Shown: positions 13,799-64,000 of the stretch, piece by piece
Numbering within the stretch: position 1 is the stretch's first letter
Layout: the number at the start of each line of letters is the position of its first letter
Origin: Parabacteroides goldsteinii
GTDB lineage: Bacteria > Bacteroidota > Bacteroidia > Bacteroidales > Tannerellaceae
Assembly: GCF_015550595.1 (NCBI RefSeq)
Contig: NZ_JADNBB010000002.1
Coordinates: 310,001-374,000, forward strand
DNA: 64,000 nt
Reading direction: 5' to 3'
Notes under the pieces: model-generated
What the model was told of the DNA's origin: nothing
The model's database searches: none
Seen by the model: the letters and a program-made list of their open reading frames with translations, nothing else
Made by a program: the position numbers and the translations under genes

Positions 13799-13945
13799 CC
13801 ATTACAATTACAATTATTACAATTAATTTTTCCGTAATGCTCTTTGGAAAATGTGGTATGTTAATTTTAATAATATATATTATTAACTTCTATAAAGAGC
13901 GGCAATAGTGCAAAAAAATAATTGTAATAATTGTAATTGTAATGG
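13799..13945. repeat. 147-bp nested inverted-repeat element (MITE-like)
   Basis: A perfect 27-bp inverted repeat (13799-13825 and 13919-13945, unit beginning CCATTACAATTAC) encloses a second inverted pair GCTCTTT/AAAGAGC (13839-13845, 13894-13900) and a 20-bp perfect palindrome TTAATAATATATATTATTAA (13867-13886). All three are roughly concentric, so either strand could fold into one long hairpin. No open frame lies inside and no clear target-site duplication is visible. It sits between the divergent mnmA and DPP III promoters. It could be a miniature mobile element or a structured regulatory/RNA element. Confidence 0.7.
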
Positions 13946-44915: not shown

Positions 44916-45458
44916 ATGGTTTATACCCAAAGTAGTTTTGAAAAAATATATAAGCTGTACTATCCGAAGATGTTTGCGTTCGCTAAGAACTATATACAGG
45001 CAAATGAAGATGCGGAGAATGTAGTGCAGGATGTCTTTGTGGTGCTTTGGGAGAAAAAGGATGAACTGGAATTATCCTGTACACTTACTACCTATCTGTT
45101 TACCCTCGTTAAGAACAGATGTCTGAATTATCTGCGGCATAAACTAATCGAAGAGGAATTTAATACTCAAATGAAAGAAGAACTAGGTTTTAAGCTATAT
45201 GCTTTGGAATCATTGGAGTATTCGTATCCGTCTGAAAAAGAATTGCAAGCCGTTATTCAACGGGCTCTCGATGCTTTGCCTGAACGTTGCCGGGAGGTAT
45301 TTATCAAAAGTCGTATCGAAGGATTAAAATACAAGGAAATTTCAGAAGAACTTGGCATATCGGTTAATACGGTTGAGAACCATATTGTTACTGCGTTGAA
45401 AAAGTTGCGTGTAGCGTTGAAAGACTATTTGCCTTTGCTTTTATTTCTGGTTAATTAA
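44916..45458 (+). CDS. FecI-like ECF sigma factor of PUL 2
   Basis: 180-residue ECF sigma factor. Region 2 is FEKIYKLYYPKMFAFAKNYIQANEDAENVVQDVFVVLWEKK; region 4 is LPERCREVFIKSRIEGLKYKEISEELGISVNTVENHIVTALKKLR. This is the usual Bacteroidetes PUL-type FecI form. It is followed by a FecR anti-sigma and an STN-domain SusC, which would relay glycan sensing to it. Candidate target motif: GTGGTCT-N12-GGGTTTAACTT before both downstream units. Confidence 0.93.
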   Translation: MVYTQSSFEKIYKLYYPKMFAFAKNYIQANEDAENVVQDVFVVLWEKKDELELSCTLTTYLFTLVKNRCLNYLRHKLIEEEFNTQMKEELGFKLYALESLEYSYPSEKELQAVIQRALDALPERCREVFIKSRIEGLKYKEISEELGISVNTVENHIVTALKKLRVALKDYLPLLLFLVN

Positions 45459-45481
45459 TGTTTATTTGTTGGAGAGGTATA

Positions 45482-45511
45482 GTGGTCTGTTTCGGGATAA
45501 GGGTTTAACTT
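45482..45511 (+). promoter_or_regulatory. Candidate ECF sigma promoter before fecR
   Basis: GTGGTCT (45482-45488), 12-nt spacer, GGGTTTAACTT (45501-45511), 18 nt before the FecR start. All 18 box positions and the spacing are the same at 46681, while the spacers differ. Confidence 0.7.
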
Positions 45512-45529
45512 TATAAATAGAAGAAAGAT

Positions 45530-46495
45530 ATGTATGATCTGTTATCAAAATATTTAGCAGGAGATATTTCACCGGAAGAAAAGCAGACTCTTTTCCGCGA
45601 ATTGAAAGAAGATGCTGGTTTGAAGAAGGAAGCAGCCGATATGCAAAATTTATCGGCTCTTGTTTCTATGGCCGGAGAGAGGCGCTCTGCTTCTGATATG
45701 CAATACCGGTCGTTTGTTCATTTGCAGAAAAAACATACCTTATTGTTCAATCTGAGAAAAATAGCCGGTTATGCAGCGATTATGCTCTTTTCAGTGTTGT
45801 CAACTTTTCTATTGATGACTTATGCCGGAGGGGGCGGAGGCGAGCTTGTCCGTTATCAGGAGTTCTCGACACCACCCGGGCAACGGGCCAGGGTAGTACT
45901 CGTGGACGGTACTGAGGTTTGGCTGAATGCCAATTCGACATTACGTTATCCGGAACGTTTTGATTTGAAGCAACGGGAGGTAGAATTGCATGGTGAAGCT
46001 TTTTTTGAAGTAGAAAAAAACAAGGAGAAACCTTTTGTTGTCAAGACAAGTAAAATGGATATAAAGGTGACCGGTACAAAATTTAATGTAAGCGCTTATG
46101 AAGCGGAAAAGTATTTTGTAACTTCTTTGGTCGAAGGGGCGGTTTCTGTTTCTTGCTCAAACGACCGGAGCCGTACTTTTGCACTACGTCCGCAACAGCA
46201 AATTATAGTATCGGATTCTTTATCAGAAGTCACTTTGTTTGAGAATACCGATTTTCTGTCGTGGAGAGATGGCGTATTTGTATTTGATGATATGTCGTTA
46301 ACCGATATCATTAAAAAACTGGAGTTGTTCTATGATATATCGATTGTAGTGAAAAACACGAAACTGAGTAATTACCGTTATACCGGAAAATTCAGACAAA
46401 GGGATGGAGTGGAAAGCGTTTTGCGGAAATTGCAAATTGTATATCCGTTCACTTATACAAAGGACGATGAGCTTAATTTGATTGTTTTACAGTAG
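45530..46495 (+). CDS. FecR-family anti-sigma factor
   Basis: Inner-membrane signal relay that holds or activates the neighbouring ECF sigma. 321 residues: a cytoplasmic helical part (LSKYLAGDISPEEKQTLFRELKED), one TM helix (about 78-100, YAAIMLFSVLSTFLLMTYA), a periplasmic FecR domain (YQEFSTPPGQRARVVLVDGTEVWLNANSTLRYP, FEVEKNKEKPFVVKT) and a C-terminal DUF4974-like domain (TDIIKKLELFYDISIVVKN) that contacts the STN domain of the transporter. Layout is that of all PUL-type FecR proteins. Confidence 0.93.
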   Translation: MYDLLSKYLAGDISPEEKQTLFRELKEDAGLKKEAADMQNLSALVSMAGERRSASDMQYRSFVHLQKKHTLLFNLRKIAGYAAIMLFSVLSTFLLMTYAGGGGGELVRYQEFSTPPGQRARVVLVDGTEVWLNANSTLRYPERFDLKQREVELHGEAFFEVEKNKEKPFVVKTSKMDIKVTGTKFNVSAYEAEKYFVTSLVEGAVSVSCSNDRSRTFALRPQQQIIVSDSLSEVTLFENTDFLSWRDGVFVFDDMSLTDIIKKLELFYDISIVVKNTKLSNYRYTGKFRQRDGVESVLRKLQIVYPFTYTKDDELNLIVLQ

Positions 46496-46787
46496 ATAAA
46501 CCCAGGTTCGAATATACCCTTGTAGAGTCGTAGCATTGTCTATGACAGCCATTCGTATGGCTTCTATAATCCTATATGTAAAGCGGGAAGATGGCGGAAA
46601 CAAGGTTGCCGAATATTGGTATGGGAAACCTTACAATATCACAGATGTGTTAAATTATATTTAATTTCATTTTCTGTGTGGTGGTCTTTCCGGCATGAAG
46701 GGTTTAACTTATAGAAAACAGGATAATAATATGTATAACCTTAAAAATAAAATGCCTATGATCTGAAAAATGAGAAAAACCTTTTTA
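46496..46787. other. Leader region of susC 2 with a 40-codon frame
   Basis: This gap holds the candidate ECF promoter (46681) and a short frame at 46542-46664 (MTAIRMASIILYVKRE, then GKPYNITDVLNYI) that reads like protein but matches nothing I know; it may be a gene remnant or chance. A small hairpin GCCAT/ATGGC lies at 46548-46561. Confidence 0.3.
46681..46710 (+). promoter_or_regulatory. Candidate ECF sigma promoter before susC 2
   Basis: GTGGTCT (46681-46687), 12-nt spacer, GGGTTTAACTT (46700-46710), the same motif as before fecR. The predicted leader to the SusC start is about 160 nt and overlaps the antisense RNA. Confidence 0.7.
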
Positions 46788-46789
46788 TG

Positions 46790-46868
46790 TAAAAAGCAGA
46801 CAGGTGCTCGAACACCTGTCTGCCATACATCTAACACTCTTAGTCGAAAAAAGTATTAAACATTTAAT
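46790..46868 (-). ncRNA. Candidate DonS-like antisense RNA to the susC 2 leader
   Basis: The minus strand has a complete transcription unit opposite the susC leader. Its promoter is TTG (46901-46899), 18-nt spacer, TACCTTTG (46880-46873); transcription would start near 46868. It ends at a perfect 11-bp hairpin GCAGACAGGTG/CACCTGTCTGC (46796-46823, 6-nt loop) followed by TTTTT, an intrinsic terminator that works only on this strand. The product would be about 78 nt and overlaps the sense leader immediately before the SusC start codon. Cis-antisense RNAs of this arrangement (DonS and relatives) repress PULs in Bacteroides, especially those with ECF sigma/anti-sigma control. No transcript evidence here. 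Confidence 0.7.
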
Positions 46869-46879
46869 TTTACAAAGGT

Positions 46880-49800
46880 ATGGAAAAATATGCTTTGTCA
46901 ATCTTTTTATTTCAAAGAAAACACTTTAAGAAGTTTTTTAATGTTATGAGAATTTCAATCCTATTTCTGTTTGTCAGCATTTTAGCATCTTATGCTTCAA
47001 ATGTAAATTCACAGACTGCAAAAGTGAATATTACGAGTGCCCGCATGACGATCGGAACTTTTATCAGGCAAGTTGAAAAGGAAACCGGTTATATGTTCGT
47101 TTATAATAAAGAGGAGATTGATGCAAATAAGACAATTTCTTTAAAGAAAGGGAAAAACACGGTTGTCGATTGCCTGAATACCATTTTTGATGGTTCCGGC
47201 GTTTCATTTGTTTTTGATGACGGCTATGTAGTCCTGACGAAACATGCACAGGAGACTGCCATATCGCAGCAGGCCGGTAAAGTGGTAAAAGGCATTGTTA
47301 CCGATGAGACAGGTTTGTCGGTAATTGGTGCTAATATCTTTGTTAAAGGAACTAATTTGGGAACGATTACTGATATGGAGGGTAATTTTAGTCTGGAAGT
47401 ACCCTCGGATAATGATATTTTGGTGGTTTCCTATATCGGTTATGTCGAACAGCAGATTCCGGTGAAAAACAGAAAAAACTGGGCAATCATATTAAAGGAG
47501 GATGCGCAGAACCTGGATGAGGTTGTGGTTGTAGGTTATGGAACACAGCGCAAAGGCAATATTGCTACAGCCGTGACGACAATTAAGGCGGAAGCTCTGC
47601 AAAATCGTCCGGTCCAGACGATAGGTGAAGCCTTGCAAGGGCAAATTCCGGGTTTGAGCGTTACGTCAAAAGGTGCGCCGGGCGAGTCGCCTTCACTTCA
47701 ATTGCGTGGTTCTTCCATGCTGAAATCCAGTACGGCAGAAACGGACAAAGAAACGTTACCCAGGCTGAGATCCGAAACCAGCGGGCCGTTGGTATTGGTG
47801 GATGGTGTGCCCGCGGACTTCAACTTCCTGAATCCGGAAGATATTGAAAGTATCAATGTCCTGAAAGATGCGGCTTCTGCAGCGATCTATGGTTCGCGTG
47901 CCGCAAACGGAGTCCTTCTGATCACGACTAAACGTGGAAAGATGGGCAAGCCTACTTTCCGTTATAATGGATCTGTCGGAGTCAATACGCCGATGTATAT
48001 GCCTAAATCGATCAGTTCAGCCGAATATGCAAGAATAAAGAATGAAGCGGAAAGGAATATGGGACGTGCTCCGGTTTATTCGGATGAAGATATTGCCATG
48101 TTTGCCAATGGAACGGATCTGAACCGTTATCCGAATACAAACTGGCTGGACCTGGCGATACAGAACAGCGTCACCACACGTCATGGCCTGGAGGCTTCCG
48201 GGGGAACGGAAAAGGTAAGATATCTGGTAAGTGCCGGTGTCGACCACCAGACCGGTGTTTTCCCGAATACACAGCAGAATGTGTTCAACGTACGTTCCAG
48301 CACGGATATTACCATTACTAAAAAGTTCGGTATCTCTTTTGATATGCGTTACCAGTTGAGGGATATGGAGGCTTTGAATAGTCAGGAAGACCTGTATAAA
48401 CAATTGATTGTTGCCGATCCGACTATGGTGGCTTATTATACGGATGGTTCCTATGGCTATAATCCGGGATTTTTCACCAATCCGCTGGTGCCTTTGTATG
48501 AAGGGGGCCGGAAGCTGACTAACAGACATGAAGCATCGGGTATTTTCAAGCTTGATTATGAATTTATCGAAGGATTGAAATTTACCGGTATTGCCAATGT
48601 GAGATATACATTCCAGAATGAAGAATCCAGAGCTCGTAAGACGTTCTATAAAAACTATTTCACAGGGGAAGAGTTTGAAAACGGACAGAATACTTTCACC
48701 GACCGCCGCGATTACAACGCTTACTACAATTTACAGGCTTTGCTGAACTATAAGAAAAGTTTTGGTGTTCATACCCTGGATATTCTGGGCGGTTACCAGC
48801 AGGAAAGTGAAAATACAGACTGGCTGAAAGGGGCCCGTTCCGGCTATCCGACCGATATTCTCTGGGAGTTGAACCCGGGACCGAAGGATAACTGGAGTAA
48901 TGACGGTAACGGTGAACATTGGGCGCTGGCCTCTTTTATCGGCCGTATCAATTATGATTACGACAATAAATATATTTTATCGGTGAGCATGCGTTCGGAT
49001 GCTTCTTCCCGTTTTGCGAAAGGAAGCCGTTGGTCGACTTTCCCATCTGTAGCCGGTGCATGGAGACTTTCCCAAGAGTCGTTTATGGAATGTACGCGTA
49101 GTTTCCTGGATGACCTGAAGGTCAGAGTTTCCTGGGGACAGACCGGTAGTGCGACGGGATTAGGCCTTTATCCGAGTTATACATTGATATCTACAGGCGG
49201 TTTGATCCTGAATAACGTTTATCAGCAGACTGCTTCTTTGAAAACGATCGGAAATACGGATTTAACCTGGGAACATACGGATATGTTGAACTTCGGTCTG
49301 GATGTGAAAATGCTGAACAGTCGTTTGAACTTTACGGGAGACTATTATATTAAAAATACGAAAGATATTTTATTGGAAATGCCCGTGCCGCTGGAATATG
49401 GTTTTGGCAAACCGAATATGAATATCGGCGAGGTGCGTAACAAAGGTTGGGAGTTGACTTTAAGCTGGAATGACCGTATAAATGATTTTGGTTACAGTAT
49501 CTCGGGTAACTTGTCGGATAACCGGAATGAAGTGATCGACCTGGGAGATACAGGTCCGTGGAAAGGTTCCAACACCTATACGGAAGTAGGGTTGCCTTAT
49601 AACTCTATTTACGGATATGAATCGATGGGATTATTCCAGTCTGATGAAGAGGTAGCCAATGCTCCTTTCCAGAATTCAAATACGGCTGCCGGTGATATAC
49701 GTTATAAAAACCAGAATGGCGATGATAAGATCGATGCTAACGACCGTGTTGTGATAGGTGATCCGAACCCTCACTTCCTGTATGGCGTGAATCTGGGCTT

Positions 49801-50236
49801 TGATTACAAGAACTTCGATTTGAATATGTTCTTCCAGGGGATCGGGCAGAAAGACCGGGTTATAATGGATAATTTTGTCAGACCGTTTTATGATTCTTCT
49901 ATTTTTGAACATCATTTGGATTACTGGACTCCGGAAAATACAGGTGCCAGATATCCGCGTATCCTGAATAAGGACGACGGAACACATAATTATCAGCAGT
50001 CTGATTACTGGATGATCAATGCCGGATATTTCCGCATGAAGAATTTGCAGATCGGATATACTATTCCGCGTGAAATATTAAGATCGGCAGGTTTTGACAG
50101 AGTACGGGTCTATTTCTCTGCTAATAACTTGTTTACTGTATCCGATTTTGTGCCGGGTATGGATCCGGAATCTGATAAGTCCGTATCTTATCCGTTTGCC
50201 CGGACATATTCATTTGGTTTAAATGTTCAATTTTAA
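46880..50236 (+). CDS. SusC/RagA TonB-dependent transporter with STN domain
   Basis: Outer-membrane glycan importer of PUL 2, 1118 residues. After an N-terminal signal (MRISILFLFVSILASYA, after a basic MEKYALSIFLFQRKHFKK start) come the STN signalling domain (about 52-122, MTIGTFIRQVEKETGYMFVYN to FVFDDGYVVLTK), a carboxypeptidase-like domain (VKGIVTDETGLSVIGANI), the SusC plug box (LDEVVVVGYGTQRKGNIATAV) and a barrel ending FARTYSFGLNVQF. The STN domain is what touches FecR, matching the sigma/anti-sigma genes upstream. It is intact, unlike the SusC of PUL 1. Confidence 0.95.
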   Translation: MEKYALSIFLFQRKHFKKFFNVMRISILFLFVSILASYASNVNSQTAKVNITSARMTIGTFIRQVEKETGYMFVYNKEEIDANKTISLKKGKNTVVDCLNTIFDGSGVSFVFDDGYVVLTKHAQETAISQQAGKVVKGIVTDETGLSVIGANIFVKGTNLGTITDMEGNFSLEVPSDNDILVVSYIGYVEQQIPVKNRKNWAIILKEDAQNLDEVVVVGYGTQRKGNIATAVTTIKAEALQNRPVQTIGEALQGQIPGLSVTSKGAPGESPSLQLRGSSMLKSSTAETDKETLPRLRSETSGPLVLVDGVPADFNFLNPEDIESINVLKDAASAAIYGSRAANGVLLITTKRGKMGKPTFRYNGSVGVNTPMYMPKSISSAEYARIKNEAERNMGRAPVYSDEDIAMFANGTDLNRYPNTNWLDLAIQNSVTTRHGLEASGGTEKVRYLVSAGVDHQTGVFPNTQQNVFNVRSSTDITITKKFGISFDMRYQLRDMEALNSQEDLYKQLIVADPTMVAYYTDGSYGYNPGFFTNPLVPLYEGGRKLTNRHEASGIFKLDYEFIEGLKFTGIANVRYTFQNEESRARKTFYKNYFTGEEFENGQNTFTDRRDYNAYYNLQALLNYKKSFGVHTLDILGGYQQESENTDWLKGARSGYPTDILWELNPGPKDNWSNDGNGEHWALASFIGRINYDYDNKYILSVSMRSDASSRFAKGSRWSTFPSVAGAWRLSQESFMECTRSFLDDLKVRVSWGQTGSATGLGLYPSYTLISTGGLILNNVYQQTASLKTIGNTDLTWEHTDMLNFGLDVKMLNSRLNFTGDYYIKNTKDILLEMPVPLEYGFGKPNMNIGEVRNKGWELTLSWNDRINDFGYSISGNLSDNRNEVIDLGDTGPWKGSNTYTEVGLPYNSIYGYESMGLFQSDEEVANAPFQNSNTAAGDIRYKNQNGDDKIDANDRVVIGDPNPHFLYGVNLGFDYKNFDLNMFFQGIGQKDRVIMDNFVRPFYDSSIFEHHLDYWTPENTGARYPRILNKDDGTHNYQQSDYWMINAGYFRMKNLQIGYTIPREILRSAGFDRVRVYFSANNLFTVSDFVPGMDPESDKSVSYPFARTYSFGLNVQF

Positions 50237-50248
50237 AAAGCTGAAAAA

Positions 50249-51856
50249 ATGAAATCAATAAAAATATATATATGTGCAGCCTTGATGGCGCTAGGCGTTT
50301 CTTCGTGCGATAGTTTTCTGACCACACCTCCTTTGGATCAGATTTCCGAAGATCAATGGTGGAACGATAAAGCCCAGACAGAAATGATGGTGAAAGGAGC
50401 TTACGAGTATGTACCTGGCCCGAATGAAGTGGTGCTTCGCGATTGTATCAGTGATAATGCGACACACCGTGATGCCAAATACAAGGAAGTGGGAAATGGT
50501 ACTTATACGACACAGAGTGATGCCGTTAAGGATGAATGGCGCTATGCATCCATTGCCAAACTGAATTACATACTGGAAGGGATCGAGAAGGCAAAAGGCC
50601 AGATATCGGAAGAAGAATATCTCCGTTTTAACGCGGAAGTACGTTTTATTCGTGCCTTTGTTTACTACAATATGGTTTTCTTTTTCGGAGATGTGCCTCT
50701 GATCACTAAGACGTTGAGTGTGGCGGAAGCCCGAGAAACGTCTCGCCAGCCTCGCCAGGAGGTATTGGATTTTGTATTGAATGAACTGGAAGAAGGTGTG
50801 CTGCCGAATATCGATAAAGTTTCTGTGACAGAAAGAGGTCGTGTTAACAAACAGGTAGTGAATGCATTCCTTTCACGTATTTATCTGTACGAAAAAAATT
50901 ATGAAAAAGTACTTTATTATACGAACGAGGTTATCGGGTCCGGAGAATATGAGCTTCATCCCAATTATGAAGAATTATTCCGCCCACAGGCTGACGCAAG
51001 TAATAAAGAGGTGATTTTTGAACGTCAATACAGTTCTCCGCTGGTTGTGCATGAGCTGAATCGTAACTTGTCTCCGGCTTCTTCCGTTTATGCCGGTTGG
51101 TCGCACGTGTTGGGGTTGCAGGAATTGGTAGACGATTATGAATGTGTGAACGGTCATCCGGTTTCCGAATGCGAATCTCTGGGCTGTGAATATTTCCAGA
51201 AAAGGAAAGATGCGGAAGCTGATACGCATCGCGGAGAATATGATTTCCGTGATCCCCGTCTGGCTGCTACCATCATGTGGCCGTACTGGGAATGGAAAGT
51301 AGGGGAAAAAGTTGTTTCCCGTTATGGTGTGGATGATCCGGATAGCAAGGATTATGTAAAGAAAGAAACACATATGACCGGTTTTCTTGTTACCAAATGG
51401 GTGGATTTGCAGGGGGAATATGCAGACCGTACCCGCGGTCAAAAGAATATGACAGTCTTGCGTTATGGGGATGTCCTTTTGATGCGGGCAGAAGCCTTGA
51501 TTGAACTGGGGCAGGATTTGGGTGGAGCTGTCGCTCTGATTAATCAGATCCGTCAACGGGCGGGGATGCCTGATATCGCAGTCGCTTCTCAATCCGTTTT
51601 GCGTGAAAAGCTACGCCATGAAAGACGTATAGAGACTGCCTTTGAAGGTTTGCGTTATTTCGATATCATTCGTTGGCATATTGCTGATAAGGTGAAATCG
51701 GGTAAAGTGTATGGTGCCCGTTTGAAGGCGATCAGTGATGCGATGGACAATAAATTTGTGGAAGAACGTTTCTGGAATGATAAAATGTATTTGTTCCCGG
51801 TTCCTCAGGAAGCAATAGATAACAATCCGAATTTGGTACAGAATAAAGATTGGTAA
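50249..51856 (+). CDS. SusD/RagB-family glycan-binding lipoprotein
   Basis: 535-residue lid partner of the preceding SusC, with lipobox ALGVSSCDSF. N-terminal WWNDKAQTEMMVKGAYEYV, helical core EVRFIRAFVYYNMVFFFGDVPLITKTL and C-terminal RYGDVLLMRAEALIELGQD, LRHERRIETAFEGLRYFDIIRW show the standard SusD fold. Starts 12 nt after SusC. Ligand unknown. Confidence 0.94.
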   Translation: MKSIKIYICAALMALGVSSCDSFLTTPPLDQISEDQWWNDKAQTEMMVKGAYEYVPGPNEVVLRDCISDNATHRDAKYKEVGNGTYTTQSDAVKDEWRYASIAKLNYILEGIEKAKGQISEEEYLRFNAEVRFIRAFVYYNMVFFFGDVPLITKTLSVAEARETSRQPRQEVLDFVLNELEEGVLPNIDKVSVTERGRVNKQVVNAFLSRIYLYEKNYEKVLYYTNEVIGSGEYELHPNYEELFRPQADASNKEVIFERQYSSPLVVHELNRNLSPASSVYAGWSHVLGLQELVDDYECVNGHPVSECESLGCEYFQKRKDAEADTHRGEYDFRDPRLAATIMWPYWEWKVGEKVVSRYGVDDPDSKDYVKKETHMTGFLVTKWVDLQGEYADRTRGQKNMTVLRYGDVLLMRAEALIELGQDLGGAVALINQIRQRAGMPDIAVASQSVLREKLRHERRIETAFEGLRYFDIIRWHIADKVKSGKVYGARLKAISDAMDNKFVEERFWNDKMYLFPVPQEAIDNNPNLVQNKDW

Positions 51857-62053: not shown

Positions 62054-62515
62054 ATGAGTGCAAATAATGCAAAGATTCAGTCTGTCCTGGAGACAACCTT
62101 TACTTCCGCTATCGGAAAACTGACTGCCGATGATTCCAATAGCTATCACAGTGATTTATATGTCCAGGCTGACCCTGAAAGCGGGGAGCTGCAAATCTAT
62201 GACGAAGAGGAACGGTTGCTGGACAAGACGATCGTATTCGACTGGGTAGGCTGTCCCTGTGAAGAAGACAAATTCAACAAGCAGGTAGCCAACACCGTGA
62301 AATCAGTGCTGACTCTTTTAGTTGCGAAAAATATATTTGACAGTCCTCACATCATGAAACCTTTCTCTGTTAGCCTGACAGATGAGGATTTCGTTGTAAT
62401 AGAGGAACTTCTCTTCCTCGACGATGAAGTTTTACGTGCCGACGATCCGCTGTTGAAAGATTTAGATGCAGAATTAGATGATTTTTTAGCCAAACTTCTT
62501 TCAGATGTCGAATAG
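62054..62515 (+). CDS. Conserved-type hypothetical acidic protein
   Basis: 153-residue acidic protein without signal peptide or TM helix, probably cytoplasmic. I do not recognise the family. It has an alpha/beta look (SDLYVQADPESGELQIYDEEERLLDKTIVFDWV), one CPC motif (GCPCEED) and a strongly acidic C-terminus (DDEVLRADDPLLKDLDAELDDFL). It has its own promoter and lies alone before tRNA-Thr. Confidence 0.65.
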   Translation: MSANNAKIQSVLETTFTSAIGKLTADDSNSYHSDLYVQADPESGELQIYDEEERLLDKTIVFDWVGCPCEEDKFNKQVANTVKSVLTLLVAKNIFDSPHIMKPFSVSLTDEDFVVIEELLFLDDEVLRADDPLLKDLDAELDDFLAKLLSDVE

Positions 62516-62521
62516 AGTTTT

Positions 62522-62529
62522 TACATTTG
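62522..62529 (+). promoter_or_regulatory. tRNA-Thr -7 box
   Basis: TACATTTG, 42 nt before the tRNA, right after the preceding stop codon. Confidence 0.6.
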
Positions 62530-62571
62530 TGCCCGAATTGAAAAACAAGTAACAAGTAAATATATAATGTT

Positions 62572-62644
<73 letters not shown>

Positions 62645-62653
62645 CACAAAATC

Positions 62654-62688
62654 AAGCAGTTATCTTTTTAGATAACTGCTTTTTTTAT
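62654..62688 (+). terminator. tRNA-Thr terminator
   Basis: AAGCAGTTATCT/AGATAACTGCTT, a perfect 12-bp stem with a 4-nt loop, followed by Ts. Confidence 0.9.
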
Positions 62689-62870
62689 GTTTTTTTCTAT
62701 GGTTTTCATGAGTCATGTAAACAGGGATGTAATCTCGACGATATTGTTGGTTATGCTTGTACTTTATAATTAGGTTAAAAATTAGGGAGATTATTAAACG
62801 CCTTTTCTTTATTAATTTCGCAAAACAGAGACATTCGATATTTCAAAGGATAGAAAAAAAACAAATACCA

Positions 62871-63106
62871 TAGTTCTGGTAGAACTATTTTTGTTTTCGG
62901 TGCAAAAATACATATTATTTTTAAATAACCAATATTTTAACAGTTTAAATATTTAATTATTTTAAATAGCTTGATGAGTATAATTAATATTTGACAAAAC
63001 AATTCGGCTAATTAAATTAAATCTTCCTGTTCTATATTTTATATAAATGAATTGTATTGTAATTGTTTATAGGTTGAAGATTAAGGGATAAGTTCTACCA
63101 GAACTA
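62871..63106. promoter_or_regulatory. Candidate invertible promoter of susC 3 (OFF orientation)
   Basis: A 16-bp inverted repeat (TAGTTCTGGTAGAACT at 62871-62886, its exact reverse complement at 63091-63106) bounds 204 bp. Each copy is itself a near-palindrome (AGTTCT-N3-AGAACT), as recombinase sites often are. Inside, near the left end, the minus strand carries TTGG (62932-62929), 18-nt spacer, TATTTTTG (62910-62903) followed by CACC, an excellent promoter pointing left, away from susC. Inversion would turn it toward susC. No equally good promoter points right in the present state. SusC genes in this group are known to be switched by such inversions. The recombinase is not in the window. Confidence 0.75.
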
Positions 63107-63212
63107 ATATAAAAACAAACATAAATATAATCTGTGTCAATACACTAAATCTTTTGATTAACATAAGTTATTCCTTATAGTTAACCTAGTTTTAATAATT
63201 AAAAGTAATGCT

Positions 63213-64000
63213 ATGCTAAAAAAAATGCAAACCGTTGGTGTTTTGCTGCTTTCGTTAGCCTTTTCTTATGGGGGACAGCTTCATGCTCTGGAAGTGAATG
63301 CAGCAACAACTATTACTCAACAAACAGACAAACTTACAGGGACTATTGAAGATGAGTTCGGACCTGTTACAGGTGCTTCTGTTGTCGTAAAGGGGACGAC
63401 AAATGGAACTGTTACGGACATGAATGGAAACTTTGAATTGTCTCATGTTAAAAAAGGAGACTTGATCCAAATCTCTTTTATCGGTTATATTACCCAGGAG
63501 GTAAAATACACAGGACAAAGCCCTATTAAAGTTGTACTTAAGGAAGATACACAAACACTTGATGAAGTGGTTGTTGTCGGTTTCGGTACACAGAAAAAGG
63601 TGAATTTAACTGGTTCGGTTAGTATGGTGGATGTAGAAGTGCTTGAATCTCGTCCGGTTCAGAATGTATCTCAAGCTTTGCAAGGTGTTGTTCCCGGTTT
63701 GAACTTTTCAGTAAATTCAGGTGGTGGTACGCTTGATAATGAAATGAGTTTCAATATTCGTGGTGCCGGTACTATTGGCGATGGTTCCGGTTCGAAACCA
63801 TTAGTATTGATTGATGGTATTGAAGGCAATATGAACACTGTCAATCCGAATGATATTGAATCGGTTTCTGTTTTGAAAGATGCTGCAGCTTCTTCTATTT
63901 ATGGTTCGCGTGCGTCGTTCGGTGTAATTTTAATTAAGACGAAAGGTGGAAAAGCTGGTAAAACCAGCGTAAGTTATTCTGGTAATCTTCGTTTCACAGA
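63213..64000 (+). CDS. SusC/RagA TonB-dependent receptor (3' end beyond window)
   Basis: The 262 visible residues start MLKKMQTVGVLLLSLAFSYGGQLHA, a signal peptide, followed by a carboxypeptidase-like domain (LTGTIEDEFGPVTGASVVVKGTTNGTVTDMNGNF), the TonB/plug box (TLDEVVVVGFGTQKKVNLTGSV) and plug (LVLIDGIEGNMNTVNPNDIESVSVLKDAAASSIYG). No STN domain, so not sigma-linked. The promoter upstream is in a putative invertible segment. An ATG 5 nt earlier is out of frame. Confidence 0.95.
   Translation, partial: MLKKMQTVGVLLLSLAFSYGGQLHALEVNAATTITQQTDKLTGTIEDEFGPVTGASVVVKGTTNGTVTDMNGNFELSHVKKGDLIQISFIGYITQEVKYTGQSPIKVVLKEDTQTLDEVVVVGFGTQKKVNLTGSVSMVDVEVLESRPVQNVSQALQGVVPGLNFSVNSGGGTLDNEMSFNIRGAGTIGDGSGSKPLVLIDGIEGNMNTVNPNDIESVSVLKDAAASSIYGSRASFGVILIKTKGGKAGKTSVSYSGNLRFT

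Follow-up and report, generated by a model that had tools for sequence, protein, structure and literature searches.

The 236-bp region 62871-63106 of the Parabacteroides DNA analysed here is almost certainly a promoter switch operated by site-specific recombination, located in front of a susC gene. The fuller proposal, in which the best candidate for the enzyme is a tyrosine recombinase encoded on a distant contig, C55, is also held with high, if somewhat lower, confidence. The window, i.e., the whole 64-kb stretch of DNA that was analysed, corresponds to contig C22:310001-374000 of this genome (G000), whose assembly comprises 6.5 Mb in 85 contigs. The gene at 62054-62515 shows 97% identity to a gene of Parabacteroides gordonii and 92% to one of P. 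faecis, in a search from which entries for this same genome may have been excluded. The locus contains the following elements:

62572-62645, plus strand, tRNA-Thr, on the side now faced by the promoter
62871-62886, plus strand, left inverted repeat and predicted recombination site, 16 nt, TAGTTCTGGTAGAACT, formed by the dyad AGTTCT-GGT-AGAACT and one extra base
62887-63090, no strand, invertible segment of 204 bp with no called gene inside
62903-62932, minus strand, Bacteroides-type promoter in the OFF orientation, TTGG-N18-TATTTTTG, directed away from susC
63091-63106, minus strand, right inverted repeat, 16 nt, AGTTCTACCAGAACTA, the perfect reverse complement of the left arm
63213 (ATG) to C22:376413, past the window end (L016:7213-10413), plus strand, susC, 1066 aa, with 63213-64000 as its window part

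A preliminary description of this DNA had reported identical 16-bp inverted repeats around 204 bp, and the two arms were found to be exact; each is itself a dyad of the form AGTTCT-N3-AGAACT. The near-consensus promoter directed away from susC was likewise located as described, since TTGGTTATTTAAAAATAATATGTATTTTTG, on the minus strand at 62903-62932, is the sole match to TTG-(17-22 nt)-TAnnTTTG on either strand between 62650 and 63212; TAnnTTTG is the Bacteroides promoter consensus given in passages of PMC4747536. The end of its -7 box lies 16 bp from the left arm. No comparable promoter faces susC in the same interval, in agreement with the earlier description: the only element with that direction is a bare -7-like octamer, TATTTTTG, at 62886, with no TTG at the right distance, and the other bare octamer, at 63116, is on the minus strand. 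Of 2000 dinucleotide-shuffled versions of 62650-63212, three contained a perfect 16-bp pair whose arms were 100-1000 nt apart; the repeat pair of the window locus is, on its own, roughly a 1-in-700 local chance event. Across the whole 64-kb window there are two repeat pairs of this kind, the second of them at about 13799-13945, versus a mean of 0.05 in 20 shuffles. A chance origin of the window repeats is untenable because the dyad belongs to a genome-wide family (21 sites, control 0).

According to the mechanism that we propose, a tyrosine recombinase would bind the dyad sites at both ends of the region, strand exchange would occur within the central ~7 bp of these sites, and the 204 bp between them would then flip. 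In the orientation drawn above, the single promoter would be directed to the tRNA-Thr side and would drive no gene (OFF); the tRNA-Thr gene is on the plus strand and therefore is not driven by the minus-strand promoter, which faces no gene in its direction. In the flipped orientation, 16 bp would separate the -7 box from the right arm downstream, the transcript would begin a short way ahead of this arm, and susC-susD would be reached after a leader of roughly 130 nt (ON). At least 24 loci of this class, the window locus included, are present in the genome and probably share one master enzyme, for which the best candidate is the product of G000:C55:118821-120050. Switching within this strain, the present silence of susC and the position of the crossover in the central bases are predicted from the sequence.

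The preliminary description had also suggested looking for the repeat in the rest of the genome, and this proved informative: AGTTCT-N3-AGAACT was found 21 times, and the control pattern 0 times. In the 38 genomes of the genus that were searched, the dyad is present at least once in 22; summed over all of them there are 153 dyad matches versus 45 control matches, and most of the dyad matches are held by 13 genomes with four or more sites. The loci that were fetched contain 64 inverted pairs of the class (control 0), 24 of them in this genome. In all, 65 pairs were found, and an overlapping pair at L147 (ATTTCT) was dropped as spurious. The figure of 24 is a lower bound; two weaker cases, C20:47504/47713 and C22:440037/440306, which are among the matches listed for a relaxed motif, failed the pair test. 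A SusC-like ORF starts within 200 bp in 13 of the 24 pairs of this genome. An outward TAnnTTTG box placed 13-20 bp from one arm was detected in 29 of the 64 invertons (11 of the 24 in this genome) and at both arms in 0 of 64, and 300 rounds of the same test on shuffled segments yielded 0.9 such cases on average and never more than 4. Nine invertons of this genome combine one susC within 200 bp with a box no more than 50 bp from an arm; in seven of them the promoter faces away from susC and in two towards it, so the window locus is in the common, OFF state of the assembly.

Two other members of the class in this genome deserve mention. The inverton L027:6276-6698 (G000:C85:54277-54699) is flanked on both sides by SusC-like genes, and a third site, at C85:62052, 7.4 kb away, has the same AAA spacer as the inverton; we read this arrangement as a two-way toggle or a small shufflon. 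The inverton L026 (G000:C50:16268-16487) lies about 430 bp upstream of a gene for a 419-aa integrase, and its promoter box is directed away from that gene.

Comparison with related genomes revealed the opposite orientation of the segment. When 62500-63400 was used to search the 38 genus genomes, this one included, G020 alone matched both the susC-side arm with the start of susC and the promoter piece. The susC-side flank and the gene align in the same sense (84% over 911 bp), whereas a 91-bp piece consisting of one arm and the promoter is reversed (80%) and lies directly next to the susC-side arm; the promoter of G020 therefore faces susC, with 17 bp between its -7 box and the susC-side arm. 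SusC and SusD are each 93% identical between the window locus and G020. Beyond the far arm the two genomes share only about a dozen bp, because in G020 the locus sits in other surroundings. The three central bases of the dyad were altered jointly on both arms, with GGT in the window locus and GTT in G020. In 25 comparisons of orthologous loci with both flanks aligned, which are not independent of one another, the orientation was the same in 17 and inverted in five, and the inside was unmatched in three. Two of the five inverted cases were discounted, given that susC paralogues are present on both sides and the margins are small (52 and 114 bits). A clean inversion is that of C17:33236/33828 versus G037, with flanks of 97.7 and 94.3% identity and an inside of 90% over 578 bp; the other clean cases are the same C17 locus versus G009, and G002 versus G003. 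Both orientations thus exist between genomes, i.e., the window locus is OFF and that of G020 faces susC, and the C17 segment is inverted versus G037. Flipping between these assemblies is not frequent; the majority with the same orientation would suit a switch that is slow or biased, and by itself is no argument for flipping. The interpretation put forward in the preliminary description, an invertible promoter now turned OFF, is supported by the promoter of G020, by the other loci of the class that occur in both orientations and by the genome-wide class of repeats.

Another characteristic feature of the class is the relation between the central spacers of the two arms. From 146 strict sites in 17 genomes, 43 pairs of neighbouring sites no more than 1500 bp apart were obtained, and in 42 of these the N3 spacers are reverse-complementary; by comparison, distant pairs of sites within one genome share their spacer, in either sense, in 48 of 896 cases. 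The only neighbouring strict pair with unlike spacers is L174 (G021:C109:22976-23129), with TAC versus GCA. When pairs were taken with no requirement of identity, all three spacer bases were shared in 60 of 63; the misses are the same G021:C109 pair, plus L018 and L147, which join an arm to a stray nearby site and were counted as misses. In a set of 70 pairs selected at 13/15 identity, the two arms of a pair differ in 18 instances overall: one concerns position 8 and all the others positions 1, 4, 12 and 15, with none at positions 5-7 or 9-11. This distribution may be read as the natural footprint of a 7-bp crossover core. Spacers that are matched within a pair and mostly different between loci are as expected of the crossover core of a recombinase; arms that are identical by descent might strengthen this effect, and descent would not alone spare the centre. 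The spacer GGT is present both at the window locus and at C23:2770/2997, so the tag formed by these bases is not unique to each locus.

From these observations, one could envisage a single master tyrosine recombinase acting on two dozen or more surface-nutrient promoters, with most loci carrying their own 3-nt crossover tag that would confine recombination to their own pair; we consider the chances of this extended model to be about even. If true, the enzyme would flip many switches without scrambling the chromosome, and exchange would be allowed between loci with the same tag. Among the 24 pairs, the GGT tag of the window locus is matched only by C23:2770/2997, which lies before a susC, and rearrangements between just these two loci would be predicted. 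No account of the spacer rule was found in the literature on these switches, in searches not aimed at exactly that point.

The preliminary description had further supposed that the dyad might identify the recombinase family, and had proposed a search for a nearby recombinase gene. The idea held in that the dyad led to a candidate tyrosine recombinase on C55, which is not near the window locus. In the neighbourhood itself, in a search limited to PF00589, no match was found beside the switch on C22 between 310001 and 386000, and the only match on this contig is at 91506. This genome has 48 PF00589 matches. When integrases from G006, G013, G014 and G018 were compared, using the loci of 30 of their 69 matches, the 410-aa protein encoded at C55:118821-120050 represented the only family common to the four genomes and this one besides XerD and a second Xer-sized family. 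This protein is 60-74% identical to its counterparts in the four relatives, and shows arm-binding, SAM-like and catalytic domains; aligned to XerD, its R, K, HxxR, H and Y residues, which we take to be the catalytic residues of tyrosine recombinases, are all in place. In the 38 genomes, a full-length orthologue was found in 18, a partial one in 8 and none in 12. Four or more strict sites are present in 12 of the 18 genomes with a full-length orthologue versus 1 of the 20 others (Fisher p 8e-5, with a four-site cut-off that was picked after the data had been seen).

The neighbourhood of the gene points in the same direction. A pair of the class was detected within about 10 kb of the C55-like gene in 8 of 18 genomes, a count that rests on two mismatches (control 0/18; at three mismatches, 2 control pairs in 20 loci) and on stretches of which three were shortened by contig ends (G001, G019 and G025); in seven genomes the pair is 4.4-5.4 kb away. 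All 17 neighbourhoods examined (that of G025, too short, was left out) contain a SusC-like ORF no more than about 5 kb from the gene. In the relatives the C55-like gene is found within susC/susD clusters with repeats of the class, and some of the segments have susC on both sides. The distribution and neighbourhood of the C55 protein suggest that it is probably the enzyme of the class, with appreciable room for doubt.

The main competing explanation is that the promoter switch is real and is worked by a recombinase other than C55, i.e., another of the 48 PF00589 proteins or a serine recombinase; we regard this as the less likely assignment, though one with considerable weight. In its favour, the three genomes with the most sites (this one, G037 and G009) have no pair of the class within about 9-10 kb of their C55-like gene; G021 has 10 sites and no match to the C55 enzyme; and the comparison covered 30 of the 69 integrase matches of the four relatives, in a search limited to PF00589 proteins. 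Three further genomes, G005, G017 and G025, have a C55 orthologue and 0 strict sites, and no pair of the class was found near the C55-like homologues outside the genus (G090, G258 and G181). Against it, among the proteins compared C55 is the only one, other than the two Xer-sized families, with the shared distribution mentioned above, and both the abundance of sites and the neighbourhood favour it. Other proteins were considered and discarded: for L187 and L179, two short candidates profiled over the 38 genomes, close homologues do not follow the abundance of sites. The integrase of 419 aa encoded 430 bp away from the C50 inverton was set aside as master enzyme, given that integrase-like ORFs occur at only two other scanned loci (L117 and L166), each closest to a different family when assigned with 30 of the 48 integrases of this genome as reference. 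Comparison with NCBIfam did not name the recombinase either: of ten proteins, nine had only weak matches of Xer-like type, and the remaining one is XerD itself.

The switch could also be genuine and locked in this strain, its enzyme being lost, off or inactive here. The single orientation of the one assembly, the lack of a PF00589 match near the locus on C22, where the only one is at 91506, and the decay seen further down the locus (a 277-aa GH20 remnant) would agree with this possibility; nevertheless, the two arms match perfectly and conform to the class, the frames of susC and susD are open, with 93% identity to their G020 counterparts, and this genome encodes an intact candidate enzyme that lacks none of the catalytic residues, which makes a locked switch improbable. 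Least probable of all, to the point of being nearly negligible, is that the dyads are operators of a dimeric regulator that loops or represses the promoter with no recombination: each arm is a 15-bp dyad sized like the operator of a dimer, a hybrid two-component regulator follows the operon and the orientation was the same in 17 of 25 orthologous comparisons, but the promoter segment is inverted in G020 and the C17 segment versus G037, and operators need neither a reverse-complementary 3-nt spacer on the partner, found in 42/43 and 60/63 pairs, nor a joint change of spacer on both arms such as GGT versus GTT in G020.

The switch proposed here is of a kind already known, i.e., the invertible promoters of Bacteroidales, among them the SusC/SusD inversions due to Tsr0667 of B. 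fragilis. Passages of PMC4747536 describe Tsr0667 as one of three master invertases, with three SusC/SusD clusters and nine other regions as its targets, and its SusC/SusD inversions are also treated in part of PMC11852207. Both systems would have one invertase for many distant loci, SusC/SusD clusters among them, and several SusC/SusD loci in one genome (here 13 of 24 pairs within 200 bp of a SusC-like ORF); in contrast, the host here is Parabacteroides and not Bacteroides, there are at least 24 pairs in one genome, and the window locus is a single-promoter ON/OFF switch instead of a multi-segment shufflon. The Tsr0667-controlled inversions were reportedly described by Nakayama-Imaohji et al. 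in 2009, and AGTYYYN4GDACT is taken here as the repeat consensus of Tsr0667. Both window arms fit this consensus, and many of its matches in the genome are in facing pairs; since its raw count (69) is not clearly above that of the control (57), we relied on the strict dyad and on pairing. The window locus was filed as a Bacteroidales invertible promoter and is likely a member of the Tsr0667 group, on a comparison of loci and repeats.

In B. fragilis, Mpi is a serine recombinase with another repeat; downstream of the window switch are susC-susD and the driven gene is susC, unlike the upxY-type promoters, where it is upxY or a capsule operon. A recombinase gene beside the switch is also expected of the upxY type, and no PF00589 match was found beside the window switch between 310001 and 386000 of C22. 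The Mpi and upxY-type systems are similar in that promoter inversion takes place between short inverted repeats, with one global invertase for several loci, as stated in passages of PMC12632263 and PMC4747536. The inverton groups of PhaseFinder-type surveys, as far as sections of PMC11892184 and PMC10939037 describe them, share with the present class a Bacteroidota host, a common repeat motif, an embedded Bacteroides promoter and frequent SusC/SusD neighbourhoods; those surveys are based on reads, whereas the present work is based on assemblies. The Rci shufflon site, according to part of PMC11852207, has a 7-bp core between binding arms, as the footprint obtained here suggests, but is asymmetric in its arms, whereas the sites studied here are dyads.

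By the literature searched, the window locus, the within-pair spacer rule and the C55 candidate appear to be new. Invertible promoters before susC/susD help to set which glycans gut Bacteroidales take up and which surface proteins they show, and the window locus adds a clear new case from Parabacteroides. It also belongs to a genus-wide set of switches whose sites follow a readable grammar: dyad half-sites, a common 7-bp core and, in the centre, three spacer bases that agree within a pair and mostly differ between loci. If the spacer insulates the loci, this would answer how one enzyme can serve many sites safely, and if C55 is the enzyme, the whole set of switches could be locked by one deletion.

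Some features of the surroundings were also recorded. Outside the window, susC is followed by susD, then by a GH20 fragment in the opposite direction and by the hybrid two-component regulator. The GH20 fragment (277 aa, L016:12525-13358, minus strand), placed between susD and the regulator, looks like a remnant and ends where the catalytic domain starts. On the other side of the switch, the tRNA-Thr gene (62572-62645) has the appearance of a hot spot for insertions: the tRNA is retained in relatives, where this PUL does not follow it, and just beyond it G020 and G003 encode an integrase of 400 aa (L117:590-1971). A separate inverted repeat is found at 13799-13945, between a minus-strand mnmA-like gene for tRNA modification and a plus-strand peptidase M49 gene; it is perfect over at least 23 bp, with about 100 bp between its arms and TTACAA-like units, and it is possibly another switch or a regulatory site, of a different class. 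A second susC/susD pair is present in the window at 44916-51856, with a gene for an ECF-type sigma factor in front and the ORF 45530-46495 between; its SusC has a weak match to the STN domain, below the cut-off, and the mode of control of this pair is different from the switch.
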